64,000 nt of DNA from Rhodoferax sp. PAMC 29310 (lineage in GTDB: Bacteria; Pseudomonadota; Gammaproteobacteria; Burkholderiales; Burkholderiaceae_C): contig NZ_CP072852.1 of the NCBI RefSeq assembly GCF_017948265.1, positions 2,480,001-2,544,000 on the forward strand, given 5' to 3'. Positions 6,185 to 63,403 of the stretch are shown piece after piece; position 1 is the first letter of the stretch; each line of letters opens with the position of its first letter. A program made the translations under genes and the position numbers. The notes below the pieces were generated by a model. The model had not been told where the DNA came from. It saw nothing but the letters and a program-made list of their open reading frames with translations, and made no database searches.

Positions 6185-7745
6185 GGCGTGACTCCGCCTC
6201 AACCTGAGGTGCGATCCAGACCGAAAGGGCGTGGCGCACCTGCGTCAGATCAGAGAAGGGCAAACGGGCTCCCGCCACCTCCTGGTAGTCCTCATGGCCT
6301 TTGCCTGCAATCAGCAACACATCCTCGGGGGCCGCGTGGCTGACCGCATGGGCAATCGCCTCAGCGCGGTCTGGCAACACGGTCAGAGAGTGGTGACCGC
6401 TCAAACCCAACAAAATCTGACTGATGATGGTCTCGGGCTTTTCGTTGCGGGGGTTGTCACTGGTGACCACCACATGGTCAGCATGACGACCTGCCATGGC
6501 GCCAATCAAGGGGCGCTTGCCGGCATCACGGTTGCCGCCACAGCCCAACAGACACCACAACCGGCCTCCACGTTGCAGCGCGAGTGGGCGAAGGGCCTCC
6601 AGCGCTTTGCCCACGGCGTCAGGCGTGTGGGCGTAGTCCACCACCGCCAGGGGTTGATTCACACCACCCACGCATTCCATGCGCCCGGGAACCGGGCTCA
6701 AGTCGCCGCACACATCAGCCGCAGCGGCCAGCGGGACACCCAGCGAGCGCATCGCACCAATCACGCCCAGCAAGTTGGCCAAGTTGTAAGTCCCTATGAG
6801 TCGGGTCTGCAAGGCATGGCTCTCGCGTACGCCGTCTGCCAGCGTCTCGATCAAAGTAAAGCGCAGCCCTTGGGCGTCGTAGCTGATGTGGTCAGCCTGC
6901 AAGCGTGCCGGGCCCGCACAGGATGTGGTCCAGATCTGCGGGAGCTTGCCCACCAGGGCTGCCGCCAATTCAGCACCCTGAACATCGTCAACATTGATCA
7001 CCGCCGCTTGCAGGCCCGGCCAGACGAAGAGTTGGGCCTTGGCCTGCCAGTAGGCCGCCATGGTGCCGTGGTAATCCAAGTGGTCCTGCGTGAAATTGGT
7101 GAAGATGGCGGTGTGAATCCGGGTGCCGTCCAGGCGACGTTCTTCAATGCCGATGGATGACGCCTCAATGGCGCAGGCTTGCACGCCATTTTGCAAAAAC
7201 TGGTTGAAGTGGTATTGCAGCAACACGGGGTCGGGCGTCGTCATGCCGGTGCTCAACAGGGCCGGTGCAGCGCCTGGTGCGTCAACGGCTGAACGGCCAG
7301 GCTGAGGCGGGCGACCAATACCCAAAGTACCCACTAATCCGCAGGGAATCCGCGCAGACTGCTTCACATTTGATAGCGCCTGCGCCAACCACCAGGCCAC
7401 GGACGTTTTACCGTTGGTTCCGGTGACGGCCACCACTGTTAACCGTTCTGACGGCTGGGAAAAATAGGTGGCAGCAACGGGGCCGCTGGCCGCCTTGAGC
7501 TGACCGAAGCTTGCGACTCTTTCGTCTTCAAATTTGAAGCTGGTGACACCTTCATGTTCCACAAGACAAGCGGCAGCACCGCGCGCCAAGGCGCCGGCCA
7601 CATGCTCGCGCGCATCGGTCGCGGCACCCGGCCAGGCAATGAAGCCGTCACCCGGCTGAACTTGCCGGTTGTCGGTCTGCAGAGTGCCCGTCACGCGGCT
7701 GCTCAGCCATTGAGCTGCTTCTGAGGGAGTGTGTAGCTGTCGCAT
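6177..7745 (-). CDS. murE: MurE, UDP-MurNAc-dipeptide:meso-diaminopimelate ligase
   Basis: A Mur ligase of 522 residues. The DNPRNE sequence in the C-terminal third is the known signature for adding meso-diaminopimelate rather than lysine, consistent with dapF in this window. The ATP loop GTNGKTSVAWW lies near residue 109. The ATG shares one base with the ftsI stop (TAATG). Residues about 124-141 are encoded by copy G of the 54-bp repeat, just after the ATP-loop helix, where other MurE proteins are a few residues shorter (recalled, not aligned). Confidence 0.96.
   Translation of the reverse strand: MRQLHTPSEAAQWLSSRVTGTLQTDNRQVQPGDGFIAWPGAATDAREHVAGALARGAAACLVEHEGVTSFKFEDERVASFGQLKAASGPVAATYFSQPSERLTVVAVTGTNGKTSVAWWLAQALSNVKQSARIPCGLVGTLGIGRPPQPGRSAVDAPGAAPALLSTGMTTPDPVLLQYHFNQFLQNGVQACAIEASSIGIEERRLDGTRIHTAIFTNFTQDHLDYHGTMAAYWQAKAQLFVWPGLQAAVINVDDVQGAELAAALVGKLPQIWTTSCAGPARLQADHISYDAQGLRFTLIETLADGVRESHALQTRLIGTYNLANLLGVIGAMRSLGVPLAAAADVCGDLSPVPGRMECVGGVNQPLAVVDYAHTPDAVGKALEALRPLALQRGGRLWCLLGCGGNRDAGKRPLIGAMAGRHADHVVVTSDNPRNEKPETIISQILLGLSGHHSLTVLPDRAEAIAHAVSHAAPEDVLLIAGKGHEDYQEVAGARLPFSDLTQVRHALSVWIAPQVEAESRHA
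7324..7377 (-). repeat. 54-bp palindromic repeat, copy G (inside murE)
   Basis: Minus orientation, sense to murE. Starts GCTATCAAATGTGAAGCA, then GTCTGCGC. Aligns without gaps to copy C (first eight bases of the right block identical) and encodes about residues 124-141. Confidence 0.6.
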
Positions 7746-10748: not shown

Positions 10749-10754
10749 CAACCT

Positions 10755-11183: not shown

Positions 11184-11233
11184 AACAACTCACCCTTTTT
11201 CAATGAAACCGCGGGAGCAAATCTCTACGCGGG

Positions 11234-11267: not shown

Positions 11268-11292
11268 GTATCAGCAAATGCAAGTAATGCAA
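11265..11292 (-). promoter_or_regulatory. Predicted sigma-70 promoter of the dcw operon
   Basis: On the minus strand TTGCAT (11287-11292) and TACAGT (11265-11270) are separated by 16 bases, giving a plausible -35/-10 pair about 80 bases upstream of the mraZ GTG. The -10 box touches the first of the four MraZ-type repeats. Confidence 0.5.
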
Positions 11293-11432: not shown

Positions 11433-11440
11433 CGGTATAT

Positions 11441-17636: not shown

Positions 17637-18818
17637 TCACTTACGCATGACAACAAGCCCTTTCAGGTATTCCCCTTCCGGAAACTCAATGGTCATGGGG
17701 TGATCGGGCGCACCGCCCATGCGCTCGGTGATGTACCCATCCACGGAGGCGTCAATGCCTGCTGAGGCAACAATTTTGTGAAACAAATCCGCGCTGATGC
17801 CCCCTGAGCAAGAGTAAGTAAACAGCACCCCGCCCGGTTCCAGCAGCTTGAAGGCCAGGCGATTGATGTCTTTGTAAGCCCGCGCAGCGCGCTCGGCATG
17901 GGTCACCGTCGGCGCAAACTTGGGCGGGTCCAGCACGATGGCATCAAAGGTGCGCCCTTCAGCGACAAACTGGCGCAAGGAAGCGTTGACATCCGCATCC
18001 ATAAAAGTCGCCCGGCTGGCGTCAAAGCCGTTCAAGGCCACGTTGGCCGCCGCTTTCTCAATGGCCGGGCCCGACGAGTCGATGGACGTGACGTGGGCAG
18101 CGCCACCGGTCAGGGCCGCCACGGTGAAGCCGCCGGTGTAGCAGTAGCAATTCAAAACACGCTGGAAGTTCAGTCGCTTGGCGTACTGGGCAAAACGCTG
18201 GCGGCTGTCACGCTGATCCAGGTAAAAGCCGGTTTTATGCCCGGTGGCGATGTTGACGGCCAAGCGCCAGTCATGCTCATGCAGCACCAAATCCAGTGGG
18301 CCCTCCCCTCGCAACCAACCCGTAACTTCAGGCAAACCTTCCAGCGCGCGACCACTGGCGTCTGAGCGCTCATACAGGCGGGACAGTCCGGTGGCAGCCA
18401 ACAAGGCATCGACCAACACGTCTTTCCAGCGCTCGGCGCCGCAGGACAAAAACTGGGCGACCAGCGTGTCGCCGTAACGGTCGACGATCACGCCCGGCAA
18501 GCCATCTGACTCGCCGTGTACCAGACGCATACTGTCACTATGGATATCAAACCGACCTCTAGCGCTCACAGAGGCTGCGACAGTAGCTATCAAAAACGAA
18601 GTATCAATTGGCCTGGTCTCGTTAAAACTCCAGACCCGAGCCCGTATCTTGGACGTGGGACTGAAGGCAGCCCAGCCCAGGAACTGACCGTCGGCCGATT
18701 CAACTCGCACCGTTTCACCCGATTCGGCACTGCCATTGGCAATGGCGGACTCAAAAATCCAGGGGTGGCGGCGCAAAAGAGAGCGCTCTTTGCCGGCTCT
18801 TAAACGAATAATTTTCAT
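17637..18818 (-). CDS. rlmI: RlmI-type 23S rRNA (cytosine-C5)-methyltransferase
   Basis: About 393 residues, the same as E. coli RlmI, which methylates C1962 of 23S rRNA. An N-terminal PUA domain (LRAGKERSLLRRHPWIF) is followed by a Rossmann methyltransferase domain: NCYCYTGGFTVAA (SAM loop), DSSGPAIEKA, and VLDPPKF (catalytic motif IV). ATG at 18816-18818 is chosen because MKIIRLRAG is the family start; the frame extends upstream to 18851. Residues about 73-90, in the linker between the domains, are encoded by copy D of the 54-bp repeat. Confidence 0.9.
   Translation of the reverse strand: MKIIRLRAGKERSLLRRHPWIFESAIANGSAESGETVRVESADGQFLGWAAFSPTSKIRARVWSFNETRPIDTSFLIATVAASVSARGRFDIHSDSMRLVHGESDGLPGVIVDRYGDTLVAQFLSCGAERWKDVLVDALLAATGLSRLYERSDASGRALEGLPEVTGWLRGEGPLDLVLHEHDWRLAVNIATGHKTGFYLDQRDSRQRFAQYAKRLNFQRVLNCYCYTGGFTVAALTGGAAHVTSIDSSGPAIEKAAANVALNGFDASRATFMDADVNASLRQFVAEGRTFDAIVLDPPKFAPTVTHAERAARAYKDINRLAFKLLEPGGVLFTYSCSGGISADLFHKIVASAGIDASVDGYITERMGGAPDHPMTIEFPEGEYLKGLVVMRK
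18549..18602 (-). repeat. 54-bp palindromic repeat, copy D (inside rlmI)
   Basis: Minus orientation, sense to the gene. Contains TTGATAGCTACTG, then CGC, then AGCGCTAGAGG. About 20 of 31 right-block bases equal intergenic copy B. Encodes about residues 73-90 of the methyltransferase. Confidence 0.8.
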
Positions 18819-20237: not shown

Positions 20238-20924
20238 TCAACGCAGGCGCGTCAGGGCGGCACTAGCCAACTCGGCGATGCGCTCCAAAAAGTCCGTGCC
20301 CATGGAGCTGGCAAAGCGCTGTGCATCAGGTGAAGCCAACACCAGCATGCCAAAAGCCGGGGTGGCCGAGCCAATCAGCCCGGCCCGCAGCGGCAGAATG
20401 GCCAGAGAGACGGCCAGGTGAGGCTCGGGCAGCCAGCTCACCGCCTCAAAACCGCTGTTCACGCCGCAAAACGGCTCCATCAATGAGGAGGCAAACAGCT
20501 TGGCGTCGTCGCTCACCCCCTGCGTGAAGTCGGCATGGGCGAACTGCGGCGCCACATCCCAGACCTTGATGCCTACTTGCGGCATCGAGAACTGGTCTTG
20601 AATTTCTGCAGCGATCTGTGCGGGCAGTGCCAGCACGTCGTTTGATGAGAACAAGGTGCGCGCCCAGCGCAACAGCTTGTCCGACAGGATCACGTTCTCG
20701 TTGCCATTGCGGATCATGTCCATGATTCGGTGCTCCAGGCCCTTGATCTTGTCGCGCAGCATCTGCGCCTGACGCTCCTGAAGGCTCACAGCGCGGTTGC
20801 TGTGGGGGCTGTTCAGGTGAACGGCGGCCAACAGTTCGGCATGGCGCTCAAAAAAGTCAGGGGTGTTGGCCAGGTAGTTGGCGATGTCGTCTTCGGTGAT
20901 GGGGTTGGTCAAAGTAGTGGTCAT
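20238..20924 (-). CDS. DUF484 family protein (GAF-like)
   Basis: 228 residues. The N-terminal signature [20 protein letters not shown] is diagnostic of DUF484, which has a helical segment followed by a GAF-like domain. Its biochemical role is unknown. In many proteobacteria it sits between dapF and xerC, exactly as here. The ATG overlaps the dapF stop by four bases, so the two are probably co-translated. Confidence 0.92.
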
Positions 20925-21796
20925 AAGGTCTCGGGCAGGTCAATTTCGCCATGGAAAACGGTCGTAGCCGGACCGGTCATCATTACAGAAGATGCACCGC
21001 CGGCCCAGGAAATAGTCAGCACGCCACCGTGGGTTTGCACATCCACAGTCTCGTCCAGCAGGCCCAGCCGAATGCCGGCGACCACCGCCGCACAGGCGCC
21101 GGTGCCGCAGGCCAGGGTTTCGCCAGCGCCGCGCTCAAACACCCGCAGGCGAATGTGGCCGCGGTCGACCACCTGCATAAAACCGGCATTCACCCGGCGG
21201 GGGAAGCAGGCATGGTGCTCGATCAATGGGCCCTGAGTCAACACCGGCGCCGTGTCGACATCGTCCACCACTTGCACCGCGTGGGGGTTGCCCATGGAAA
21301 CAACCGCTACCAAAACAGGAGCTGTCTGCGCCAGTCCAGCAAGGGCCAGAGGCCATTTTTGCCATGAGCCCAAGGGCTCGTGCTGGATGCCCTGCGCATC
21401 GAAGGGAATGTCCGCCAGATCAAACACGGGCGACCCCATGTTCACTGTGACACGGCCGTCATCGTTGAGGCGGGGCTCAATGACGCCTCCCAAGGTTTGC
21501 ACGCGAATGGCATGCTTGGTGGTCAAGCCGCGGTCCACCACAAAGCGGGCAAAGCAGCGGGAGCCATTGCCGCACTGCTCCACCTCGGCGCCATCGGCGT
21601 TGTGGATCACGTATTCAAAGTCGATGCCCGGTGCGAGCGCGGGGCGCACCGTCAAAATTTGGTCCGCGCCGACGCCAAAATGGCGGTCTGCCAAGAAACG
21701 GTAGTGCGCGGTGGTCAGTCCGACGCGGCCCTGGGTTTCGTCCAGCACAACAAAGTCGTTGCCGGCGCCCTGCATTTTGGTGAACGGAATTCGCAT
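20921..21796 (-). CDS. dapF: DapF, diaminopimelate epimerase
   Basis: Converts LL- to meso-diaminopimelate for lysine and peptidoglycan synthesis, the substrate of MurE in this window. 291 residues, against 274 in E. coli. The two catalytic cysteines are seen in [13 protein letters not shown] (first) and [13 protein letters not shown] (second), and [13 protein letters not shown] is the family start. Residues about 147-164, just before the conserved [10 protein letters not shown] strand, are encoded by copy C of the 54-bp repeat and account for most of the extra length. Confidence 0.96.
21306..21359 (+). repeat. 54-bp palindromic repeat, copy C (inside dapF, antisense)
   Basis: Starts GCTACCAAAACAGGAGCT, and the right part ends AAGGGCCAGAGGCC. 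Gapless against copy B (about 30 of 54). Encodes residues about 147-164 of DapF from the opposite strand. Confidence 0.8.
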
Positions 21797-21861
21797 GCCG
21801 GAATTATCCCTTGATCCTTGGCGACAGGGGCAAACGCCGGTATTCGTTGCAAAATCAAATT

Positions 21862-23517
21862 ATGCCCCGCCAAAACCAACTCCTTCACCCGCCCCGCCCG
21901 CCAGCCCCCACGCGCCCTGCCGCCACGGTGCTGCTCATGCGAGATGGCCCACAGGGCGTCGAAGTGCTCATGACCCGCCGCGCTACCACGGCCAGCTTTG
22001 CGCCCGGCGCCTATGTATTCCCCGGTGGCGGCGTGGACGCGCTGGACGCCACCAGCCACTCGCAGGCCACGCGGCGCCCCAGCCAGAGCGACCTGCACCT
22101 GACGCAGGCCATTGCCGCCATTCGCGAAAGCTTCGAAGAATTGGGCGTGCTGCTGGCGCGCCGCCCGGACGGCCGCGTGGCCGACGACAGCGACATTGCC
22201 GCACTGGACCGTCACCAGCCCTTTGTGGCCCAATGCAAGGCGCACGGCCTGACCTTGATGGCCCAAGACGTGTTTGTGCTGGCGCACTGGGTGACCGACC
22301 GCGACTTGCCGCGCCGCTTTGATGTGCCGTTTTTGATCGCCCGCATGCCCGAAGGTCAGATGCCGGTGGCCGACGAGACCGAGCAGTTTGAGCCCGAGTG
22401 GGTGCGCCCCTTCGATGCCTTGGCGCGACACAAGGCGGGCAGCTTTTTCATGATCTTTCCCACCTTGCGCACGCTGGAACGGCTGCAGGACTTCTCCGAC
22501 GTTGACGCCGTGTTGCAGGCCTGCGCGGTGGACGAGCAACCGTTGTGGACCAGTTGCCCCCGCGCCGGCCTGCTGGCCGGGCGCGAGGCCCGTTATATGG
22601 AGCATGAGTTGCCGTTTGGCGAACTCGCAATGGTGTGCCCTGACGGCCAAATCGTGCACGCACTGGACTGGCAGACCGAGCACCCCGTGGCGCTGTTGAA
22701 CAATGTGCAACGGCTGACGGCGCCCAACCCCGGCGTGATGACCGGCCCCGGCACCAACAGCTATTTGGTGGGTGAGCCCGCCACGGGCTACATCGTGATC
22801 GATCCCGGCCCGGCCGACGCGGAGCACCTGGACAAGCTCTGGCGCGCCGCAGGGGGTGATATCCGGCTGATTGTGTGCACCCACTCTCACCCCGACCATT
22901 CACCCGGTGCTTTGCCACTGCAAGCCCGTTGCGCTCAAAAACCGCCCATTCTGGGCCTGCCATCAGGCCCCAACGCCCGCGCCGCCAGTGAGTTCACCCC
23001 GGACAGGGCGCTACAAGATGAGGAGCTACTCACGCTCACTGGACTTGGGCCAGATGGTGATTTGACCCATACACTGAAAATCGTTCACACGCCGGGCCAC
23101 GCCGCCAACCACCTGTGCCTGATCTTGCTGGAGGACGGCTTGCTGTTCAGTGGAGACCATATTCTGAATGGCAGCACCACCGTGATTGACCCACCGGATG
23201 GCGACATGACGCTTTACCTTCAGTCACTGGACCGCTTGAGTGAGCTTGGCGAACAAGACCGGCTGGACTACATCCTGCCCGCCCATGGCTACGTCATGGG
23301 CGGGCCCACCGGCGAAGCCGCGCAGGCCATCAGCCATCTCAAAGCGCACCGTTTGAAACGCGAGGCCAAAATTTTGCGCGCCATGCAGACCGCGCCACAG
23401 GGCACGCTGGACGACTGGGTGGCGCTGGCCTATGACGACGTGCCGCCGCGCATGTGGCCGGTGGCTAAACGCTCACTGATGGCCCATGTCGCCCGCCTTG
23501 AAAGCTTAATGACGTGA
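21862..23517 (+). CDS. NUDIX hydrolase fused to metallo-beta-lactamase-fold hydrolase
   Basis: A two-domain protein of about 551 residues. The N-terminal half has a NUDIX fold with a recognisable box end REsFEELGV near residue 90. The C-terminal half is a metallo-beta-lactamase domain with THSHPDH near residue 340, HTPGHA near 410 and SGDH near 431, the metal-ligand motifs of the LACTB2/glyoxalase II type. The substrate is unknown. ATG at 21862 is preferred over an upstream frame extension that lies in the dapF promoter region. Residues about 384-401 match copy E of the 54-bp repeat. Divergent from dapF. Confidence 0.85.
   Translation: MPRQNQLLHPPRPPAPTRPAATVLLMRDGPQGVEVLMTRRATTASFAPGAYVFPGGGVDALDATSHSQATRRPSQSDLHLTQAIAAIRESFEELGVLLARRPDGRVADDSDIAALDRHQPFVAQCKAHGLTLMAQDVFVLAHWVTDRDLPRRFDVPFLIARMPEGQMPVADETEQFEPEWVRPFDALARHKAGSFFMIFPTLRTLERLQDFSDVDAVLQACAVDEQPLWTSCPRAGLLAGREARYMEHELPFGELAMVCPDGQIVHALDWQTEHPVALLNNVQRLTAPNPGVMTGPGTNSYLVGEPATGYIVIDPGPADAEHLDKLWRAAGGDIRLIVCTHSHPDHSPGALPLQARCAQKPPILGLPSGPNARAASEFTPDRALQDEELLTLTGLGPDGDLTHTLKIVHTPGHAANHLCLILLEDGLLFSGDHILNGSTTVIDPPDGDMTLYLQSLDRLSELGEQDRLDYILPAHGYVMGGPTGEAAQAISHLKAHRLKREAKILRAMQTAPQGTLDDWVALAYDDVPPRMWPVAKRSLMAHVARLESLMT
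23010..23063 (+). repeat. 54-bp palindromic repeat, copy E (inside the NUDIX-MBL gene)
   Basis: Starts GCTACAAGATGAGGAGCT (14 of 18 equal to copy C), then ACTCACGC, ending GGGCCAGATGG. Sense orientation; encodes about residues 384-401. Confidence 0.6.
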
Positions 23518-26882: not shown

Positions 26883-27242
26883 GTGTGAAGCCCACCGATA
26901 AGCCGGATTCTGTGCACGGAAACCGGTCTTGCGACCACTTTCCATGTGACTGTCATTAATCTGGGCTGTTGGTCACCCAACAGCTCGGTGCTACCTACCC
27001 GCACACTCCGGGGGCCCCGTCAACGTGTGCCTACTTGGTATTGCTGCGCGTAGAGATTGCCCGTTTCACCCGAACTAAATCGGCTCGTCTCTGTTGCTCT
27101 AATCCTCACCTTATACCCCTCACTTGCGTGATGGGCTTTCAATGGACAGCCGTTAGCTGCTACGCTGCCCTATGCAGTCCGGACGTTCCTCCAGTGCCTG
27201 GTTTCCCAGATCGCACCAGCGACAGTCTGGCGGGCTTCACAC
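26883..27242 (-). ncRNA. rnpB: RNase P RNA (M1-type, class A)
   Basis: The catalytic RNA of ribonuclease P, which matures tRNA 5' ends. On the minus strand the 5' part contains GAGGAACGTCCGGACTGC, the conserved region I. The 3' part contains CAGAATCCGGCTTATCGG, conserved regions IV/V. The terminal P1 helix can be paired over 14 base pairs (GTGTGAAGCCCGCC with GGTGGGCTTCACAC), which sets the ends near 27242 and 26883 and gives about 360 nt. No open reading frame of note lies here. It converges on the Rrf2-type gene with a gap of 39 bases. Confidence 0.93.
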
Positions 27243-34337: not shown

Positions 34338-35132
34338 TCAAGACGGAACGGGAAGATCCCCCACATGTAGTACTTGTTTGGGCAGGCGAAACACGCTGGC
34401 GTCGTCGTAAAACGCCGGGTCTTCATTGGCAGGCCACCAGCCCGGCACGCCCAGAACCGGCAGGTGCGCAAACGGCTTGGCCGCGAGCTTGTCGGCACTC
34501 AGATCGGCTGCCATCCAGGCATCCAGATTTGCTATTGAATCAATAGCTACTTGCGCACGGTAGACGTGGGCTGTGATCGCTTTTCGGGGTGAAACCAGCT
34601 TTTCCATCAAGGCATGGCCAAAGATCACCAAGTGAGCCTGGGCCCAAAGCGGGCGAAGGTCGACAAACAAGCGCTGCCAGTCCTTGGCGGCCAAGGCGTC
34701 CCACAGTGCATCAGGCGCTTGCAGAAAAGCGGCGTTCTCATCAAACACGGTCAGGCCGTCCCTCGCCGGACCGCGCACCGGCTGGATGCCGGTTTGCGCA
34801 ATTTGCGCCACATGCAATTGATTGAGGCGGCGCTTGGTCTGGGGAAACTGCAACCATGCCAATCCATTAAAAAAGTCATGCAAGCCCTCTCGGGTCGGGC
34901 AACAGCCGCTATGAAAAATATAACTCTCATAGGCCTCGCCCGCCGGCAAGTCGCTCTGTGGCACAAATTGCACAAGTGGCGCTTGCGATGCTGACGCGGC
35001 GTTCAGCGCTTGGGCACTAGACGCACCGGCGCCAACCTGTGTCGCGGCGCCCTGCCCCATCGCCACATAGGGCGCAAGCCAGGGGGCGGTCCAGTCAACG
35101 GTGGCCAATTCCTGAGAAGCCAAGACGCTCAA
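34338..35132 (-). CDS. DUF3025 family protein
   Basis: 264 residues with no membrane segment. The block AYESYIFHSGCCPTREGLHD and FNGLAWLQFPQTKRRLNQLH match the DUF3025 family, whose function is unknown. The start is a TTG at 35130-35132 that overlaps the preceding NYN gene stop as TTGA; no ATG lies near the conserved N-terminus. This points to translational coupling. Residues about 184-201 come from copy F of the 54-bp repeat in antisense orientation. Confidence 0.82.
   Translation of the reverse strand: MSVLASQELATVDWTAPWLAPYVAMGQGAATQVGAGASSAQALNAASASQAPLVQFVPQSDLPAGEAYESYIFHSGCCPTREGLHDFFNGLAWLQFPQTKRRLNQLHVAQIAQTGIQPVRGPARDGLTVFDENAAFLQAPDALWDALAAKDWQRLFVDLRPLWAQAHLVIFGHALMEKLVSPRKAITAHVYRAQVAIDSIANLDAWMAADLSADKLAAKPFAHLPVLGVPGWWPANEDPAFYDDASVFRLPKQVLHVGDLPVPS
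34531..34584 (+). repeat. 54-bp palindromic repeat, copy F (inside DUF3025, antisense)
   Basis: Starts GCTATTGAATCAATAGCT, a perfect 6-bp stem, then ACTTGCGC and GTGGGCTGTG. Encodes residues about 184-201 from the opposite strand. Confidence 0.72.
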
Positions 35133-47748: not shown

Positions 47749-48219
47749 ATGTCCGAGAATTCCAGCACCCTCCCTCCCCCGCAGAACCTGCCTCTGCCTG
47801 TGCCCAAGGACCGATCGACCGGCGTCAGCCTGCCGACTGACCAGGAGCTGGTGCTCAAGGTGATTCCCATGCCGGGTGACTGCAACGCCAACGGCGACAT
47901 TTTTGGCGGCTGGGTGATGGCCCAGGTGGACCTCGCCGGGGCCGTGGTCCCCGCGCGTTATGCGGGCGGGCGCATGGCCACGGTGGCGGTGAACGAGTTT
48001 ATTTTCAAGCAACCCGTGCGAGTGGGCGACATCTTGTCCTTCTTTGCCAAGCTGGTGCGCATCGGCCGCACCTCCATCACCGTCAAGATTGAGGTCTATG
48101 CCGAGCGATTTGGCACTCAAGGCGCCTACAGCAAGGTCACCGAGGCCTTGCTCACCTATGTGGCGATTGACGAAGCGGGTCACCCGCGCCCGGTACCCAA
48201 ACACAACCTTGCTCCTTAA
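47749..48219 (+). CDS. YciA-like acyl-CoA thioesterase (hotdog fold)
   Basis: About 156 residues. The hotdog core carries GDCNANGDIFGGWVMAQVDL, where the Asn/Asp and following helix form the active site of YciA/BACH thioesterases. RPVR... and VKIEVYAERFG complete the fold. ATG at 47749 is chosen over a GTG two codons earlier. The last codons and the TAA stop lie within copy A of the 54-bp repeat, so the present C-terminus is repeat-derived. Confidence 0.88.
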   Translation: MSENSSTLPPPQNLPLPVPKDRSTGVSLPTDQELVLKVIPMPGDCNANGDIFGGWVMAQVDLAGAVVPARYAGGRMATVAVNEFIFKQPVRVGDILSFFAKLVRIGRTSITVKIEVYAERFGTQGAYSKVTEALLTYVAIDEAGHPRPVPKHNLAP

Positions 48220-48264
48220 AAAATAGCTACTACCGCTTACTCTACAAGGGCTACAGCCCTTTAT
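48211..48264 (+). repeat. 54-bp palindromic repeat, copy A (overlaps thioesterase stop)
   Basis: Starts GCTCCTTAAAAAATAGCT, then ACTACCGCTT and ACAAGGGCTACAGCC. The stop codon TAA and the preceding Ala-Pro codons of the YciA-like gene lie in it. About 33 of 49 bases equal copy B. Confidence 0.85.
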
Positions 48265-48282
48265 TGATATAAAAAGGCTGCC

Positions 48283-49983
48283 ATGTCCGCTCCATCCCAC
48301 ACCGAGTTCGCCACGCCTTTTGAACAAGGCAACTCAAACCAGACCGCCACCTGGTCGCAGACGGTGGCGTTTTACGAGCACTTGGCGGCGGCTTTTCCGC
48401 AGGTACTGCGCTTTTGGCAGATTGGCACCTCCGACAACGGCATTCCGATGCACGCAGGGGTGATCACCGCCGACGGCGTGCTGGACCTCGAGACGCTGAT
48501 GGCGCAGGGCCGATCGGTGTTTTTTAACAACAACGGCATTCACCCTGGCGAGCCGGAAGGCATTGACGCCTGCATGGCACTGGTGCGCGACCTCTGCACC
48601 AGCGCCCCTGCTCGGGCCGCACTGGGCAGTACCGTGTTTTTGTTCATCCCTGTCTACAACGTGGACGGCGGCCAAAACCGCCAAGCCACCTCGCGGGTGA
48701 ACCAGGACGGGCCGGAGTCGTTTGGCTTTCGGGGCAACGCACTGCACCTGGACCTGAACCGCGACTTCATCAAATGCGACAGCCTGGCCGCGCAGGTGTT
48801 CAACCGCTTTTTCACCGCCTGGGACCCGGACGTGATGGTCGACACCCACACCTCCAACGGCGCGGACTACAGCTACACCATGACGCTGATTCCCACGCAG
48901 TCCGACAAGCTGGGCGGCGGTTTGGGCGACTTTTTGCGGGACACCATGGTGCCCGCTATTTTTGAAGGCATGGCCGCGCGCGACTGGCCCACCTGCCCCT
49001 ATGTGAACCCGATCAAGCAGACGCCCGACGACGGCATTGAGGACTTTCTGGAGACGCCGCGCTTCTCAACCGGTTTTGCGGCGCTGCACCACACGATTGG
49101 CTTCATGCCCGAGACCCACATGCTCAAACCCTACCCCGACCGGGTCGCGGCCATGGGCGCACTGGTGGCCACCGTGCTGGCGTTCACCGTCAAAAATGCC
49201 ACGCAGATACAAGACCTGCGTACCCAAGCCCGGGCGGCCCGACCCGCCCATTGGCCACTGACCTGGGCACCGGACTACAGTCGCCCGTCCACTTTTTTGT
49301 TCAAAGGCTACCAAGCCGTTCACAGCCCCAGCCTCTTGGGCAACTACACCCGCCTGAGCTATGACCGCAGCCAGCCGTGGAAAAAAGAGATTGACTACGT
49401 CAACCGCTTCAATGCCCAAGACACCGTTCAAGCGCCGCGCGCCTACCTGATTCCCCAAGCCTGGCGAGAAGTGATTGAGCGCCTGCAGTGGAACGGCGTG
49501 CACATGACTCGACTGGTAGCGGACCAGACACTGGAAGCCCGCGTGTACCGCATCGAGCGCGTCACCTTCCGCCCCGACGCTTATGAAGGCCACCTGTTTC
49601 ACGACGAGGTCACGTTAAGCACCCACACCGAGATGATTGCCGCCCGCGCCGGCGATTACCTGCTGGATCTGGACCAGCCCCACGCCCGTTATGCGGTGGA
49701 AACGCTGGAACCCTTTGCGCATGACAGCTTTTTCCGCTGGGGATTTTTCAACAGCGTGCTGGAGAAGAAAGAGAACTTCTCGGATTACGTGTTCGAAGAC
49801 ACGGCCGCCCAGATGCTGCGTGACGAACCCGCGCTAAGGCTCAAGTTCGAGCAGTGGAAACTGAGTCACCCTGAGCTGCTGAGCGATGGAGAAGCGGTGC
49901 TGGGCTTTTTGTTTGCTCACGGCCAGCGCCACCGCGAACCCGAGTGGCGCCGCTACCCGGTGGTAGCCCTTATGAAACGCTGA
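48283..49983 (+). CDS. M14-family zinc carboxypeptidase-like protein
   Basis: 566 residues. The zinc motif HPGEPEG (HxxE) is near residue 84, the substrate residue region RNADLNRDF-like DLNRDFIKCD lies near 163, and DTHTSNGADYSY near 186 provides the third ligand His. The C-terminal ETHMLKPYPDR contains the candidate catalytic Glu. No signal peptide, so it is probably cytoplasmic and may be a peptidoglycan-peptide or amide hydrolase. ATG at 48283, 63 bases after the thioesterase gene. Convergent with the PaaI-like gene. Confidence 0.85.
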   Translation: MSAPSHTEFATPFEQGNSNQTATWSQTVAFYEHLAAAFPQVLRFWQIGTSDNGIPMHAGVITADGVLDLETLMAQGRSVFFNNNGIHPGEPEGIDACMALVRDLCTSAPARAALGSTVFLFIPVYNVDGGQNRQATSRVNQDGPESFGFRGNALHLDLNRDFIKCDSLAAQVFNRFFTAWDPDVMVDTHTSNGADYSYTMTLIPTQSDKLGGGLGDFLRDTMVPAIFEGMAARDWPTCPYVNPIKQTPDDGIEDFLETPRFSTGFAALHHTIGFMPETHMLKPYPDRVAAMGALVATVLAFTVKNATQIQDLRTQARAARPAHWPLTWAPDYSRPSTFLFKGYQAVHSPSLLGNYTRLSYDRSQPWKKEIDYVNRFNAQDTVQAPRAYLIPQAWREVIERLQWNGVHMTRLVADQTLEARVYRIERVTFRPDAYEGHLFHDEVTLSTHTEMIAARAGDYLLDLDQPHARYAVETLEPFAHDSFFRWGFFNSVLEKKENFSDYVFEDTAAQMLRDEPALRLKFEQWKLSHPELLSDGEAVLGFLFAHGQRHREPEWRRYPVVALMKR

Positions 49984-50065
49984 ACTCGCTATTTTTTCAA
50001 TAGCTACTACCGCCGACGGGATAAGCGCTAGAGGCTAATTTCCCTCAAAAACTGAGGTGCCAGCG
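49984..50065. terminator. Convergent intergenic region with palindromic structure (possible bidirectional terminator)
   Basis: Between two converging genes lie copy B of the 54-bp repeat (GCTATT and AATAGC arms) and a second hairpin with CCTCA and TGAGG arms (about 50043-50057). The region could terminate transcription from both sides, but no long T tract follows either hairpin. Confidence 0.35.
49988..50041 (+). repeat. 54-bp palindromic repeat, copy B (intergenic)
   Basis: The clearest copy: GCTATTTTTTCAATAGCT, then ACTACCGCC and AAGCGCTAGAGGC. First arm pair GCTATT/AATAGC. Lies between two convergent genes. Confidence 0.88.
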
Positions 50066-50551
50066 CTAAGAGACGATGTAGGCCGCCGAGCCAGTGGACA
50101 GCAGCGTGCCGTCGGCGCCATAAAACTCCATGCGGGTTGACGCCACGCGCGAACCCAGCCGCATGACCTCCGCGCGAATCTCGAAAAACTCACCAATGCC
50201 GGGGCGCAGGTAATCCACCCGCAGGTCAATCGTGCCCAGCTTGGCAAAACGGTGCAGGCGCTGCGTGGGCGACTCGTCCATGTGGCGTGCGCCAATGGCC
50301 GCCATCACCGCCAGCCCGCCCATGGCGTCCAGGCTGGCACTGATGGCGCCGCCGTGAATGCGCTTGTGGGCATAGTGACCAATCAACTCGGGCTTCATAT
50401 TCAAGCGCGCCCGAACCTGGCTGGCGGCAATGGAGGTGATCTGCAAGCCCAGCACCTTGTTGAACACAATCATTTCTTCGAAGATGGTTCTCAGTCCGGC
50501 CATGAACTCTTCTTCAAACACAATTTCGGTAGCAGCAGGGGTAGAAGTCAT
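50066..50551 (-). CDS. PaaI-like hotdog thioesterase
   Basis: 161 residues, a hotdog fold with HGGAISASLDAMGGLAV, the helix motif of PaaI/YigI-type acyl-CoA thioesterases, and VDYLRPGIGEFFEIRAEV in the sheet. Probably hydrolyses medium or aromatic acyl-CoA. ATG at 50549-50551. It lies 221 bases downstream of the crotonase gene, so it may have its own promoter; that gap holds a perfect 21-bp palindrome. Confidence 0.86.
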   Translation of the reverse strand: MTSTPAATEIVFEEEFMAGLRTIFEEMIVFNKVLGLQITSIAASQVRARLNMKPELIGHYAHKRIHGGAISASLDAMGGLAVMAAIGARHMDESPTQRLHRFAKLGTIDLRVDYLRPGIGEFFEIRAEVMRLGSRVASTRMEFYGADGTLLSTGSAAYIVS

Positions 50552-50713
50552 GCAGCATTGTTGCAGAGCGTCTGCGCCCCGGTTTTGCCAACGCGAACCC
50601 AGGCGACACAGACACGCGCACCGTCGTGTCGCAAACCATTAACGCCGGGTTTGGCCAGCACCGGGCTCAGGGTCCTGAACGCCCACTTCCCCTAGTGTTG
50701 GCTCGTGCCAAAA

Positions 50714-50734
50714 CAACTGTCAAATTGACAGTTG
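50714..50734. promoter_or_regulatory. Perfect 21-bp palindrome upstream of the PaaI-like gene
   Basis: Ten-base arms CAACTGTCAA and TTGACAGTTG flank one central A. This length and symmetry fit a dimeric repressor operator, about 165 bases upstream of the start codon. It could also form a hairpin after the crotonase gene, but no T tract follows. The rest of 50552-50772 shows nothing else. Confidence 0.5.
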
Positions 50735-50772
50735 CCCGCACTCATCCAACGAAGGGGAGAACCCAAAAAGGC

Positions 50773-51537
50773 TTACAGCGTTGTGAAATCTGGCTTGCGC
50801 TTTTCCATGAACGCAGTGAACGCCTCCCGCGCAGCCGGTTCACGCAACAAGCGCTCAAAACTGGCACCCTCTTCCTGCATGCGCTCGGCCACCACCCCGG
50901 CCTGACTTTTCTTCATGAGCCGCTTGGTCTCGATGATGGAGGCAAGGGGTTTGGAGGCGAGCTTGATCGCCTGGCGGCGCGCCAGTGCGGCGGCCTCCGA
51001 GGGCGGAACAATGCGGCTAATCAACCCCATCTCCAGTGCGGCCTCGGCCATGAAGGGCTCGCCCAGCAGCAAAGCCTCTGCGGCACGGCCATAGCCCATG
51101 CGCATAGGGGCCAAGTGGCTGGACGCGGCCTCCGGGCACAGGCCCAGGTTGACGAAAGGCATGGAAAAGGCGGCATTGTCGCCAGCGTAGACCAGGTCGC
51201 AATGGAACAGCATCGTGGTGCCAATGCCTACCGCGGGTCCGCAAACCGCCGCCAGCACCGGCTTGGGGAAGGTGCTCAAGGCGCGCAGGAACTGAAATAC
51301 GGGCGCCTCGGGGGACGCCGGGGGGCGGCTCAAAAAGTCACCGATGTCATTGCCGGAACTGAAGATGGTTTCGTGGCCCTGAAAGACGACGGCGCGAACC
51401 GCATCGTCATCGCTGGCTTGCACCAGAGCATCGGCCATGGTCGCGTACATGGTGCGAATAATGGAATTCTTCTTGTCCAGCCGGTTGAAAGTGATGGTCA
51501 AGACACCGTCGGTGATGTCGATCAATAGGTCGGCCAT
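50773..51537 (-). CDS. Crotonase-family enoyl-CoA hydratase/isomerase
   Basis: 254 residues. The oxyanion-hole block AVCGPAVGIGTTM and FSSGNDIGDF substrate loop are present. The catalytic region reads VNLGLCPEAASS, with Glu in the place where hydratases have PGAGG, a pattern seen in delta3,delta2-enoyl-CoA isomerases. An isomerase for unsaturated fatty acids is therefore more likely than a plain hydratase. Follows the isomerase pseudogene by 18 bases in the beta-oxidation cluster. Confidence 0.88.
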   Translation of the reverse strand: MADLLIDITDGVLTITFNRLDKKNSIIRTMYATMADALVQASDDDAVRAVVFQGHETIFSSGNDIGDFLSRPPASPEAPVFQFLRALSTFPKPVLAAVCGPAVGIGTTMLFHCDLVYAGDNAAFSMPFVNLGLCPEAASSHLAPMRMGYGRAAEALLLGEPFMAEAALEMGLISRIVPPSEAAALARRQAIKLASKPLASIIETKRLMKKSQAGVVAERMQEEGASFERLLREPAAREAFTAFMEKRKPDFTTL

Positions 51538-57229: not shown

Positions 57230-57661
57230 TTACTGCACGCGAATCCAGGTCTGGTTTCGGTAGAGGAAGGCGATGTAGCCGCGCACTTCCAGTTTTTTTC
57301 CACCCTCCAGCGGGGTCAGGCGCAAGGTATATTCCTTGCCGTTTTCGGGGTCCAAAATCTTGCCCCCTTCCCACTGGGTGCTGCCTTCGGTCTTTTTGGC
57401 GCCGCGGATGATCTCCATCCCCAGCTTGGGTTTTCCTTTGCGTTCGTCCGCGCACAGATCGCAATTGGGCTCAGCACTGGGTGCCAGGGCTTTCTCGACC
57501 ATGCCGGACAAGACACCATTGGCATCAGCGGAGATTCGAATTTCTGCTTTGGGCTGCTCGGTTTTGTCGTCAATGCTGCGCCAAACGCCAACCGGCGTCA
57601 TTTGCGCCATGGCGGGGGCAGAGAGTGCTATCAAAACAGAAGCAATTATTGCTTTATACAT
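57230..57661 (-). CDS. DUF2147 exported protein
   Basis: 143 residues. A signal peptide (MYKAIIASVLIALSAPAMA) is followed by the DUF2147 domain (PVGVWRSIDDKTEQPKAEIR, then YTLRLTPLEGGKKLEVRGY), lipocalin-like and of unknown function. ATG at 57659-57661 with GGAGG seven bases upstream. The ribosome binding site, start codon and about twelve signal-peptide codons lie within copy J of the 54-bp repeat in antisense. It is an odd guest inside a beta-oxidation operon. Confidence 0.88.
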   Translation of the reverse strand: MYKAIIASVLIALSAPAMAQMTPVGVWRSIDDKTEQPKAEIRISADANGVLSGMVEKALAPSAEPNCDLCADERKGKPKLGMEIIRGAKKTEGSTQWEGGKILDPENGKEYTLRLTPLEGGKKLEVRGYIAFLYRNQTWIRVQ

Positions 57662-57680
57662 AAGAACCTCCGGACAAAAA
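57627..57680 (+). repeat. 54-bp palindromic repeat, copy J (start of DUF2147 gene, antisense)
   Basis: Starts GCTATCAAAACAGAAGCA (15 of 18 equal to copy C); the right block shares about 17 of 31 with copy A. Covers the ribosome binding site, ATG and first signal-peptide codons of the DUF2147 gene. Confidence 0.65.
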
Positions 57681-59512: not shown

Positions 59513-59517
59513 GCGAA

Positions 59518-60231: not shown

Positions 60232-60241
60232 GGTAAATAAA

Positions 60242-60255
60242 AGAACGATCGTTCT
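60242..60255. promoter_or_regulatory. Predicted TetR operator AGAACGATCGTTCT
   Basis: A perfect 14-bp palindrome eleven bases upstream of the tetR ATG, flanked by A/T. This is a common form of TetR-family operator. It supports autoregulation of tetR and control of the downstream beta-oxidation genes. Another inverted repeat, GGCCAAA...TTTGGCC (60271-60295), lies just upstream. Confidence 0.68.
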
Positions 60256-60342
60256 ATTTTGCACCATGTCGGCCAAACATGTCTTGAATTTGGCCTATCT
60301 AGGGTCGTCCTTCTAAGAGAAACAAGGGTTTGTACTTAGATA

Positions 60343-61191
60343 TCAGCGTTTAAAAGGCACCACGCTTTGACGCTGCTCACCCAGCCCGTCAATCCCCAAG
60401 GCCATGAAATCGCCCTTTTTCAGGTACATCGGTGGCGTCATGCCCAAGCCCACGCCGGGGGGGGTGCCAGTAGTGATCACATCGCCAGGCATGAGCGTCA
60501 TGAATTGGCTGAGATAGCTCACGATCTTCGCCACCCCAAAAATCATGGTTTTGGTGTTGCCCGTCTGGCGACGCTGGCCATTGAGGTCCAGCCACGCATT
60601 CAATTTCTGCGGATTGGCGATGTCGTCACGCGTCACCAACCAAGGCCCGATGGGGCCAAAGGTGTCGCAGCCTTTTCCCTTGTCCCATTGCGGACCACGC
60701 TCCAACTGGTACTCGCGCTCGCTGATGTCGTTGACCAGGCAATAACCCGCCACGTGGAACAGGGCTTCTTTTTGGGTCACATAGCGCGCACGCGTACCGA
60801 TCACCACGCCCAACTCGACTTCCCAGTCGGTTTTTTGCGAACCCTTGGGCAGCATCACCGGGTCGTTCGGCCCTTGAATACATGAAATGGCCTTCATGAA
60901 AACGATCGGCTCTTTAGGAATAGGCGAACCGGTTTCAGCCGCATGGTCAGAGTAGTTCAGACCAATGGCAATGAATTTTCCAATGCCTGCCACCGGGCAG
61001 CCCATGCGCGGCGTGCCTTTGACACGGGGCAAGGTTGCCGGATCTAGCTTGCGAAGTTTGGCTAACCCCGTGTCACTCAAAACCTCAGCGTTGATGTCAG
61101 GCACGATGGCGCTGAGATCACGCAACACACCGGCATCGTCCAGCAAACCCGGTTTTTCTTTGCCCACAGGGCCATAGCGCAGCAATTTCAT
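60343..61191 (-). CDS. Fumarylacetoacetate hydrolase (FAH) family protein
   Basis: 282 residues. The FAH-fold active site shows GLNYSDHAAETG, the acidic metal ligands in DWEVELGVVIG, and ISEREYQLERG and ITTGTPPGVGLGM. The family covers hydrolases of fumarylpyruvate, acylpyruvate and sugar-acid compounds; the substrate is unknown. Downstream of slmA by three bases, so likely co-transcribed. ATG at 61189-61191. Confidence 0.92.
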   Translation of the reverse strand: MKLLRYGPVGKEKPGLLDDAGVLRDLSAIVPDINAEVLSDTGLAKLRKLDPATLPRVKGTPRMGCPVAGIGKFIAIGLNYSDHAAETGSPIPKEPIVFMKAISCIQGPNDPVMLPKGSQKTDWEVELGVVIGTRARYVTQKEALFHVAGYCLVNDISEREYQLERGPQWDKGKGCDTFGPIGPWLVTRDDIANPQKLNAWLDLNGQRRQTGNTKTMIFGVAKIVSYLSQFMTLMPGDVITTGTPPGVGLGMTPPMYLKKGDFMALGIDGLGEQRQSVVPFKR

Positions 61192-61194
61192 GAT

Positions 61195-61884
61195 TTATAT
61201 CAGGAGCTCCAGGCTCTCATCAAGGAATTCGGAAGGCAGTCGCTTGAAGCCGGAGCGTGTAAAGCGCTGCAGCCGCCCCGTCAGAAACGCCATCGATATG
61301 GACGCCCTAACGTTCGCGTCGACCGTGGGAGTGGGTGAGCCACTTTGGGTGGCAGCAGGACGAAACAACTGCTTGAGGGTGGACTCCAGCTTGTCAAAAA
61401 ACTGATTCATACGTTGCTGCAAGCGCTCGTTTTCAAACACCAGGGCATCCCCCACCATCACGCGGGTCATGCCTGGGTTTTTCTCGGCGAATTGAATCAC
61501 CATTCGCACAATCTGGCTCGCTTGGCGAACACCCGAATCAACGGGGCCGTCGTGCGCACGTGCATCGGTCTCCCGTTGAGCAATTTGATTGACGAGGGTG
61601 AACACACTTTGCTCGATGAAGTCGATCAGCCCCTCAAACATTTGGGCTTTGCTGGCAAAGTGGCGGTAAAGCGCTGCCTCGCTAACCTCCAGCCGAGCCG
61701 CCAAGGAAGCTGTCGTGATGCGCTCAGCGCCGGGCTGCTCCAGCATGGTTGCCAGGGCCTGCAGAATCTGAGTCCGCCGCTCACCCGGCTTGGGGCGCTT
61801 GCGCGTGACGGGCAAGGTCAAAGACTCAGACTCGGCAGGGTCAAGCGGAGCAGCAATGGGGGCGGTTAATTCAACGTCGGGCAT
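61195..61884 (-). CDS. slmA: SlmA-like nucleoid-occlusion factor (TetR fold)
   Basis: About 229 residues from ATG at 61882-61884. The helix-turn-helix and following block (RRTQILQALATMLEQPGAER, then LAARLEVSEAALYRHFASKA, then FEGLIDFIEQSVFTLVNQI) closely match SlmA, which binds DNA and inhibits FtsZ over the nucleoid. Its presence fits the division theme of the window, although it is not in the dcw cluster. An N-terminal extension of about 25 residues precedes the conserved part. Confidence 0.9.
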   Translation of the reverse strand: MPDVELTAPIAAPLDPAESESLTLPVTRKRPKPGERRTQILQALATMLEQPGAERITTASLAARLEVSEAALYRHFASKAQMFEGLIDFIEQSVFTLVNQIAQRETDARAHDGPVDSGVRQASQIVRMVIQFAEKNPGMTRVMVGDALVFENERLQQRMNQFFDKLESTLKQLFRPAATQSGSPTPTVDANVRASISMAFLTGRLQRFTRSGFKRLPSEFLDESLELLI

Positions 61885-61945
61885 GAGCAAGAAGCGGTGG
61901 TGAGAATTGATTCTCTCATAGCGAATCCAAGGGTTTTCGCGGGGG

Positions 61946-63403
61946 TCAACGCGGAAAAACAAGGGTAATCCGCGCCCCTGCACCGCCCGCCCCCTCGCTC
62001 ACGATCAGTTGACCATGGTGCGCGCGGGCAATTTCGTCCGCAATGGCCAAGCCGAGTCCGTTGCCTTCGCTCAATGTGCCCTGCACCCGGTAAAAGCGCT
62101 CTAGCACATGGCTGCGTTCCTCTATGGGAATACCCGGGCCATCATCTTCAACTTCCAGCAAGGCGCCGCCCATGTCGCCCGACCGGTGGCAACGGATGGT
62201 GACAGCACCACCCGCTGGGGTGTATTTCAAGGCGTTGTCAACGAGGTTGCTCAGCAGTTCGCGCAAGAGCCACTCTTGACCAGACACGTAGACGGCGCTT
62301 GCATCCAGACCCAGATCAATGGACTTCGCGCTCGCAGCATCCAGGTGGACTTCCAGCATGGTTTCGCACAAGGCCTTGAGATCCACGCGCTCCAAGGGCT
62401 GGGCGCTCAAGCTGCGCGCATCGGCCCGCGACAAAGCCAGCAGCTGATTCGCCAGTTGCGAAGTGCGACGGGCAGCATCTCGCAAATGGTTAAGTTGATC
62501 CGCTCTCAAATAAATAGCATTTTCCGATGCATGGACGGGGGGAAGACCCTGATTTGGCTCATACTTTTCTCGCCAGGCCATCGCTGCGGCAGGAATGTTG
62601 ACAGCCTGTGCCCAGGCTTCAATCTGGGACTGCAAACCCGCCAAAGGGGTGCGCAGCTGATGCGCCGCATCGGCCACAAAGCGACGCTGACTTTCGGCCT
62701 GCGCCGTCACCAATTCAAACAGCCGGTTGAGGGAGCGAACCAGCGGACGCACTTCTTCCGGGGAGGCCTGCTCGTCCATGGGACTCAAATCGCGCGGAGA
62801 CCGGTGCTCAACTGCGTCCCGCAGGTCCATCAACGGGCGCAATGCACGCTTGACTGCGAAATTCACGGCGAAAACGGCCAGCACCATCATCACCAGGTTG
62901 GGCAAGAGCACCTTCACCAAGACAAGCTGTACCCATTGCTGTCGAGGATCAGAACCGTCGGCCAGACTGACCACGAGCTCGCCCGCCGAGGTTTGAACGC
63001 GTTGGTACACGATACGAAAGGTCACCCCCCCGTTTTCCCAGCTTCGAAACAACGGTTCTGTCTCTTCTGGTGTACTGATGGACAACCAAGGCTCGCCCAA
63101 CAGCACCTTGCCACCCAAGGTCGCCACCGCGAATGCAGAAGGCCCGTCTTGTGACTTTAAAAACTCCTCAACTGAGGGGGCGGTGAGCATGACAGGGGGA
63201 TCGTCCGGCGAGTTACCGGTGGCCAGCACGGAATCAGCAACCAGCGGGAGTAACTCAAGTAACTGCTCATCCTGCTTCAGGGCGACATTTCTGGCTGATC
63301 GGTAGTCAAACCACGTACTCACGATGGCCAATATGCACAGCGGCACCAGCAGCAGTAGCAACAACCGGCGTTGCAAACCGCTGAACAGATGGGCCCACTG
63401 CAT
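61946..63403 (-). CDS. Sensor histidine kinase (TctE/QseC type)
   Basis: 485 residues. TM1 at about 12-32, a periplasmic sensor of about 125 residues, TM2 at about 160-180, HAMP, then the phospho-acceptor in DAAHQLRTPLAGLQ near residue 246. The ATPase domain shows LLSNLVDNALKYTPAGG (N box), DDGPGIP (G1) and GNGLGLAIADE (G2). Residues about 284-301, in the HisKA helical hairpin, are encoded by copy I of the 54-bp repeat. Pairs with the response regulator 12 bases upstream. Confidence 0.93.
   Translation of the reverse strand: MQWAHLFSGLQRRLLLLLLVPLCILAIVSTWFDYRSARNVALKQDEQLLELLPLVADSVLATGNSPDDPPVMLTAPSVEEFLKSQDGPSAFAVATLGGKVLLGEPWLSISTPEETEPLFRSWENGGVTFRIVYQRVQTSAGELVVSLADGSDPRQQWVQLVLVKVLLPNLVMMVLAVFAVNFAVKRALRPLMDLRDAVEHRSPRDLSPMDEQASPEEVRPLVRSLNRLFELVTAQAESQRRFVADAAHQLRTPLAGLQSQIEAWAQAVNIPAAAMAWREKYEPNQGLPPVHASENAIYLRADQLNHLRDAARRTSQLANQLLALSRADARSLSAQPLERVDLKALCETMLEVHLDAASAKSIDLGLDASAVYVSGQEWLLRELLSNLVDNALKYTPAGGAVTIRCHRSGDMGGALLEVEDDGPGIPIEERSHVLERFYRVQGTLSEGNGLGLAIADEIARAHHGQLIVSEGAGGAGARITLVFPR
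62502..62555 (+). repeat. 54-bp palindromic repeat, copy I (inside histidine kinase, antisense)
   Basis: Starts GCTCTCAAATAAATAGCA and ends CCTGATTT. About 30 of 54 bases equal copy B without gaps. Encodes residues about 284-301 of the kinase. Confidence 0.6.

Follow-up and report, generated by a model that had tools for sequence, protein, structure and literature searches.

A palindromic DNA element of about 70 bp in Rhodoferax that lies, inside the genes tested, mostly on pre-existing coding sequence

We analysed a dispersed palindromic DNA element in a 64,000-nucleotide stretch of the Rhodoferax sp. PAMC 29310 chromosome (NZ_CP072852.1, positions 2,480,001 to 2,544,000; hereafter the window). 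Judged by alignment with relatives, most of the gene copies tested are not insertions, and the element appears to lie on coding sequence that was there before. Inside genes it is a DNA signal spelled by rare codons (ATA, AGA and CGA) together with some altered residues. Copies in the tested genes grew in place. A process that favours better-matching variants accounts for most of our observations. We tentatively prefer, at rather less than even confidence, to read the element as a long chromosomal signal that grows in place by molecular drive, as DNA uptake sequences do; the growth in place is observed, and from it we infer the step to DNA uptake.

Thirty copies from the genome align over 72 columns without a gap (alignment A1), with a mean pairwise identity of 56% and a maximum of 76%. 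The 72-column matrix from this alignment was used to scan the window, with matches given in bits (the window copies at 49982, 48205 and 18537 are themselves among the 30), and a local model, R1, served as a second scan that gives E-values. In 1.35 Mb of related loci the matrix found 121 matches of at least 10 bits, compared to none in the reversed sequence. Conservation begins about 16 bases ahead of an RATAGC block and ends 53 bases past it, and the unit is nearer to 70 bp than to the 54 bp proposed in an earlier note on this stretch. Its core consists of 11-base imperfect inverted arms (GCTRCTTGCGC and GSGCTAGAGGC) around a loop of 11 bases. The left flank is AT-rich with GCTAT..ATAGC, and the right flank, AT-rich as well, carries GCC followed by a T-run and an A-run. 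GC content of the four strongest R1 matches in the window is 37-48%. In G015, an element-rich genome of another genus, the inner palindrome of the consensus is closer to perfect (GCGCTTGnnnnnCAAGCGC).

The earlier note had described a dispersed palindromic family with copies embedded in genes, and on both counts it was right. The chromosome is a single contig, and near orthologues carry names that agree with its placement in Rhodoferax. A core pattern with up to three mismatches matched 97 times in the 4,593,249-base chromosome (50 and 47 by strand), while the same pattern read backwards gave 0 matches in this genome, and the model search returned at least 150 copies (E 3.7e-16 to 2.9e-5). For 96 of these the flanks were long enough for placement: 49 are intergenic, 26 lie over a gene end and 21 inside a gene. 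Nine places had been listed in the window; a first scan of ours with a provisional consensus found all nine, the three lowest with scores at the level of shuffled sequence. Seven of the nine hold (22-75 bits), those at 7324 in murE and at 57627 fall below threshold, and one weak copy is new. Gene boundaries below come from a simple codon-usage caller made for this analysis, not from annotation; gene names are those of the earlier note or stem from orthologue names, PDB matches or general resemblance.

49982..50053, plus strand: element copy between convergent genes, overlapping the first by 2 bases; 74.7 bits, R1 E 1.9e-16, the best of the window
48205..48276, plus strand: element copy that covers the last 15 bases of gene 47800-48219 and fills the gap up to gene 48283-49983; 71.7 bits, R1 E 4.5e-15
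18537..18608, minus strand: element copy in rlmI (17637-18818), sense, open frame; 52.5 bits
34525..34596, plus strand: element copy in the DUF3025 gene (34338-35132), antisense; 35.8 bits, a good match only over the left 46 or so bases (R1 model positions 3-48 only)
62496..62567, plus strand: degenerate element copy in gene 61946-63403 (a histidine kinase by the label of the earlier note only), antisense; 31.2 bits, R1 E 0.013
21300..21371, plus strand: element copy in dapF (20921-21796), antisense; 25.2 bits
23004..23075, plus strand: degenerate element copy in gene 21811-23517 (NUDIX-MBL by the label of the earlier note), sense; 22.3 bits, R1 E 0.0088
50710..50781, plus strand: weak, newly found element copy at the gap that separates gene 50066-50551 from gene 50773-51537; 13.2 bits
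7324..7377, minus strand: claimed copy in murE, unsupported; below 8 bits in the matrix scan and absent from the R1 matches
57627..57680, plus strand: claimed copy at a gene start, unsupported; below 8 bits, with only a 21-base R1 match on the opposite strand (E 0.9)

Under R1 the copies at 23004 and 62501 are marginal when taken alone (E 0.0088 and 0.013). For the dapF copy, genomes G082 and G069 show short matches at other places.

In the rlmI copy, ATA, GCT and AGA codons spell the element and nothing is inserted. Since raw codon identity is confounded by codon bias, we used a split-half test on 80 rlmI loci, in which loci were selected by one half of the element and codons were read in the other half. 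These loci are the best 80 of at least 567 confirmed matches from one search and are therefore biased towards close relatives. Among loci selected by the left half, AGA encoded Arg87 in 23 of 24 cases (versus 2 of 592 Arg codons in the remainder of these genes), CGA encoded Arg89 in 18 of 23 (22 of 592), ATA encoded Ile92 in 14 of 22 (7 of 348) and GCT encoded Ala86 in 17 of 24 (76 of 1102). Selection by the right half gave ATA at Ile77 in 29 of 29 loci (7 of 545) and GCA at Ala81 in 25 of 29 (126 of 1744); TGC at Cys80 was not enriched (15 of 23). At left-negative loci AGA persisted in 10 of 37, and 28 of 36 had TTT for residue 90; GCT, CGA, GAT and ATA were at background level. The protein itself is affected: at RlmI residue 77, 37 of the 39 loci selected by the right half have Ile or Val, and 26 of the 27 negative loci have a different residue (Ser, Gln, Ala, Lys or others). 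This residue tracks the DNA signal.

Shuffling synonymous codons within genes, which keeps protein and codon usage, largely removed the element. In-gene matches in G015 fell from 42 to 1.1 at 30 bits or more and from 46 to 11.9 at 10 bits or more; in the window they fell from 3 to 0 (at least 30 bits), 5 to 0.1 (at least 20 bits) and 5 to 0.4 (at least 10 bits). Mismatches to the consensus in 43 in-gene copies had frequencies of 0.196, 0.253 and 0.217 at the three codon positions, without enrichment at the third, which is not as expected from decay under protein constraint alone. Two observations of the earlier note on reading frames also proved correct. The antisense copies in dapF, the DUF3025 gene and the kinase gene share one codon phase (determined by hand from the coordinates). 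The bias is general: of 11 antisense copies counted inside genes of this genome, 10 show it. Furthermore, the sense copy in the NUDIX-MBL gene reads AGGAGC where the consensus ATAGC would give TAG, and so avoids a stop.

The earlier note had taken the gene copies for in-frame insertions of 18 codons, and here the orthologues tell otherwise. RlmI, DUF3025 and DapF each align without gaps through the element in 40 relatives (40 of 120 listed per protein, including the window's own protein for RlmI and DapF). The rlmI site comprises 22 codons in all 92 loci listed, and at the codon level some members of the genus spell the element while others use ordinary codons at the same length. Site scores of the 80 loci were at least 20 bits in 37, between 0 and 20 in 8 and below 0 in 35; among 180 random 114-base pieces from rlmI loci the maximum was 1.1 bits. 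E. coli RlmI has two residues more at the site, not 18 fewer, so that repeat-free orthologues have homologous residues there, and in order-level outgroups a homologous helix is present without the element, the length nearby varying from 4 residues fewer to 13 more. For dapF, 27 of the 60 loci that could be aligned (out of 80) bear the element at 20 bits or more; all 27 have the length of the query, as do 17 of 30 non-bearing loci, and the other non-bearing loci differ by -6 to +10 codons. The 15 loci that bear the NUDIX-MBL copy (at least 20 bits, 43 of 80 loci aligned) are within -4 to +4 codons of the window gene. The earlier note had named orthologues that conserve these residues without the repeat as an outcome that would speak against insertion, and the alignments come close to it.

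From the 46 in-gene copies of G015 we chose four genes in which the enzyme was recognised. In dxr (60 bits), an rsmB-like gene (55 bits) and galU (35 bits) the best solved homologue is gap-free through the site, and in lpxK (63 bits) it has 2 residues fewer. Some other G015 genes resemble those for NuoG, DadA and a quinone oxidoreductase and are named tentatively. All eight dxr relatives from the family are ungapped at the element site, where scores are graded: G015 reaches 60 bits, two relatives reach 30 and 25, and the remaining six lie between -17 and -70. The two partly matching relatives are G004, which has other copies, and G020, with 0 matches at up to one mismatch. A further copy, at L272:3960, lies in a length-variable linker that is 27-33 bases longer than in three relatives and 123 bases shorter than in G015.

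On our preferred reading, genomes with the element would also have a trans-acting reader, and chromosomal variants that match the reader better would be passed on preferentially. Sequence-biased DNA uptake with subsequent homologous recombination, as in Haemophilus and Neisseria, would be the most likely process. Inside genes point changes would be kept, between genes whole-copy insertions would be tolerated, and once the reader was lost the copies would decay together.

The arrangement of copies was analysed in 400 kb of G015, taken as 20 stretches, 19 of which were picked around known copies, with a matrix refined on the very stretches that were scanned. We counted 130 copies versus 0 in the control: 59 intergenic, 23 at a gene edge and 48 inside genes. 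Coding sequence makes up 85% of what was scanned, and copies are denser between genes than within them. Because 19 of the 20 stretches were seeded on known copies, the density of 130 per 400 kb is biased upwards; after removal of these 19 seeds we estimate about 1,200 copies for the whole genome. Both strands are used equally (64 and 66). Spacing is slightly more even than random (coefficient of variation 0.78 versus 0.92, P 0.014), and counts per stretch do not differ significantly from random (P 0.09). Orientation of copies in the PAMC 29310 chromosome is alike in both halves of the record. A search of 72,556 plasmid records with one copy as query (E up to 1e-3) gave 3 places in 2 records. 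Phage matches, to seven Klebsiella phages at E 0.05, were at chance level and were discarded. Together, the equal use of strands, the density between genes, the near absence from plasmids, the repeated change at rlmI described below and the slight evenness in G015 form a drive-like pattern. As a separate observation, two opposite-orientation copies overlap at a 43-base offset at L224:8184-8298 and again at L235:14039-14153 of the G015 sample.

Genomes of the genus are either rich or poor in the element. Among 24 of them, ten have 17-474 matches at up to three mismatches and fourteen have 0-4; at up to one mismatch, 13 genomes gave a match in a sample covering 60 genera of the family. Where rlmI could be read, genomes that bear the element in this gene have 474, 67, 54, 26, 17 and 1 matches genome-wide, versus 0, 2, 0, 0, 0 and 2 for the non-bearing ones. 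Around rlmI, other matches of at least 15 bits number 3 in 559 kb at negative loci, 62 in 646 kb at positive loci and 11 in 148 kb at intermediate loci, many of them being the conserved dapF and NUDIX-MBL sites and therefore not independent of each other. The rlmI and dapF sites have the same position across loci named Rhodoferax and Polaromonas. On an RlmI tree of 88 rows, computed without the element region and with a bootstrap that had not settled, the bearing state requires at least 14 changes on the best tree (28.8 in shuffles), all at a single codon position, and only 4 of them are forced by well supported branches. The rich-or-poor distribution and the repeated change at one codon point to gain and loss of a trans-acting reader. 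Synteny between G184 and G193 was lost after about 20 kb. In the same tree, locus L141, on a contig labelled Akkermansia muciniphila, groups with Comamonadaceae, and this contig is probably misbinned.

Several observations weigh against growth by uptake. Copies between genes mostly bring 65-83 extra bases where we compared them, a gain in length that point changes alone would not give. The copy after dxr in G015 adds 73, 83, 81, 65 and 44 bases compared to G003, G020, G042, G018 and G035, respectively (lengths taken by hand from the ends of BLAST pieces); at up to one mismatch G003 has 6 matches and the other four have 0 or 1. Near rlmI, two copies between genes lengthen their gaps by 66-70 and 69 bases compared to the closest relatives, and a third lies in a gap of 88, with -4 to 22 in most relatives; gaps of 145, 233 and 246 with no detectable copy occur there too. 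Junctions were too diverged to read a target duplication. Of 9 loci compared within the genus of G015, 3 carry a given intergenic copy; three in-gene copies occur throughout the three or four relatives aligned. Within genes, about 24 codons may have been inserted in frame in the G015 gene L227:509-1429, as a single local alignment with one relative of 42% identity suggests. DapF of a relative is 10-11 residues longer at the element's place than solved DapFs, hence part of this segment may be a family-wide addition, and an old part-insertion at this place is conceivable.

Further points against this reading concern the signal and its reader. An information content of 55-59 bits over a length far above that of known uptake sequences is not typical, spacing in the PAMC 29310 genome shows no evenness, and the plasmid search, made with a single copy at E up to 1e-3, may miss degenerate plasmid copies. 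Nor do genomes divide strictly into those with and those without the element: G088 scores 22 bits at rlmI and has 1 match genome-wide; L173 is negative at rlmI and has 30.7 bits at dapF and 19.7 bits at NUDIX-MBL. ComEC (PF03772), of the DNA uptake machinery, occurs in 23 of the 24 genomes, element-rich and element-poor alike, and so neither supports this reading nor discriminates between them; it was not found in G082, a genome that is 89% complete. A trans-acting reader was not found among the candidates considered, Y1_Tnp and ComEC being unrelated to the element.

A broader account, doubtful in our judgement though possible, would bring the two kinds of copies together: a new class of self-propagating chromosomal signal, a 70-bp palindromic word that multiplies both by insertion between genes and by rewriting of genes already there, either one base at a time or through templated overwriting. 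Proteins encoded across the chromosome would be bent towards its spelling, and control would lie with a single trans-acting reader that species gain or lose.

Alternatively, the element might be the binding site of a nucleoid or chromosome-organising protein, selected at fixed places and decaying where the protein is lost. The palindromic core with AT-rich flanks, the conservation at synonymous sites and thus at the DNA level, the conserved rlmI and dapF positions across genera and the near absence in 14 of 24 genomes beside abundance in ten would all suit such a site, as would the near absence from plasmids, which fits uptake too. We think it unlikely, however: copy number ranges from 17 to 474 among bearing genomes of a single genus, there is no strand bias between the halves of the record, and no such protein was identified. 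Known chromosome-organising sites differ in copy-number variation and in strand bias.

We also hold it to be improbable that a mobile palindromic element inserts between genes and, inside genes, replaces sequence by a templated mechanism (template switching or annealing of a single-stranded copy) that keeps the length. Such an element would explain the bases added between genes (for the G015 copy 44 bp in one comparison and 65-83 bp in the other four, with similar additions at two further copies) and the suggested 24-codon insertion, and the inverted pairs at their 43-base offset would fit as well. G010 has a pair of matches, on separate contigs, whose 35-base cores are identical; these may be recent copies or an assembly duplicate. 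However, the 30 aligned copies of the PAMC 29310 genome contain no near-identical pair, and some gaps with no detectable copy (L115, L165 and L183) are as long as copy-bearing ones. At dxr, the homologous residues under constraint and the two partly matching relatives suggest gradual change. Nor is there a relation to Y1_Tnp, the transposase of REP elements (RAYT): the domain occurs in 23 of 23 further genomes, element-bearing or not, and in the PAMC 29310 genome, where a single Y1_Tnp gene was found, the nearest 1.5 kb or so around that gene hold no element copy, which leaves a RAYT/REP origin unsupported. This gene (L031, G000:C1:4306788-4307114) is itself flanked by an inverted pair, TAATAGGGGTCAGAT and ATCTGACCCCATTTA.

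Insertion of an 18-codon element into genes, in the manner of Rickettsia, we regard as very improbable for the genes of the window. The suggested 24-codon insertion, the copy in the variable linker, the extra DapF residues and the preference of copies for open frames speak for it, and such a mode may exist elsewhere, as the G015 case suggests; against it, no element-sized difference in length is seen in rlmI, dapF, NUDIX-MBL, DUF3025, dxr, galU, lpxK or the rsmB-like gene. It is just as hard to believe in an RNA element or bidirectional terminator at gene ends, an idea to which two drawable hairpins and the position of 73 non-gene copies with both neighbours called (23 between convergent and 8 between divergent genes, counts for which no null was computed) lend themselves, given that in-gene copies occur in both orientations, that compensatory changes do not exceed those in shuffles (4 changed cells versus 3.2 in hairpin 1 and 0 versus 0.2 in hairpin 2; 1 and 0 pairs changed on both sides) and that no Rfam family matches the element in the window at the gathering threshold. 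Elsewhere in the window, a class A RNase P RNA lies at 26883-27238 on the minus strand (Rfam match).

If growth in place by molecular drive is the right reading, the element would be, to our knowledge, the longest DNA word written in place across a bacterial chromosome. It would shape protein sequence, residue 77 of RlmI being an example, and it would imply a DNA-recognition system in Comamonadaceae, possibly one for the uptake of self-DNA. With one genus split into rich and poor genomes, phyletic profiling is a feasible way to look for the reader gene. The copies also call for caution in other cases, as repeats found within genes are not necessarily insertions.

Literature searches on the element and its closest kinds brought up no earlier description among the papers listed from the collection searched, the nearest being the beta-proteobacterial repeat elements (BRE). 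Papers that share sequence words with the element treat, by their titles and abstracts, unrelated subjects, and in PMC2755013 'palindromic' refers to CRISPR. BRE occur in Comamonadaceae, including Rhodoferax ferrireducens and Polaromonas, and some lie wholly within coding sequences, according to PMC3110155; there they are about 90 bp long, often tandem (variable number tandem repeats, VNTR) and of 69% GC in Bordetella. The present element, in contrast, has about 70 bp, with 37-48% GC in the four strongest window matches, and is mostly single, a distinction that is drawn from length, tandem arrangement and GC. A second, GC-rich palindromic repeat (CCCCCTTTGGGGGAAGG...) at L222:15128-15246 accounts for 102 extra bases next to an in-gene element copy when G015 is compared to L272-L274, and matches other places in G015 and its relatives; by length and GC it could be a BRE.

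With the Rickettsia palindromic elements, as PMC10969869 describes them, our family shares palindromic repeats with open frames in unrelated protein genes, but those are in-frame insertions of about 150 bp and the tested gene copies of the window add no such length. Abundant dispersed chromosomal palindromes are also a feature of REP/RAYT systems, unlike which the element occurs inside genes too and has no relation to Y1_Tnp in 23 genomes. Miniature inverted-repeat transposable elements (MITEs) such as ERIC, NEMIS and RUP are likewise short and non-coding, with intergenic copies that often add length, whereas the tested gene copies of our element are length-neutral.

Also close are the uptake sequences, namely the uptake signal sequence (USS) of Haemophilus and the DNA uptake sequence (DUS) of Neisseria. 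Many uptake sequences lie inside genes without lengthening them, and an origin in place on coding sequence is likewise what we found in the genes tested. According to PMC7811141, the USS has a core of 9 bp, 1,465 occurrences and a spacing of about 1,000 bp, and biased uptake with recombination has been modelled as sufficient for accumulation. The same text gives the further features that the element shares: many chromosomal copies, a core with AT-rich flanks, greater scarcity in constrained coding sequence and, on our preferred reading, accumulation by molecular drive with numbers limited by interference with genes. The element departs from uptake sequences, which have a short core of about 9-12 bp, in its roughly 70 conserved bp and 55-59 bits, in its palindromic core and in those intergenic copies that look like insertions.

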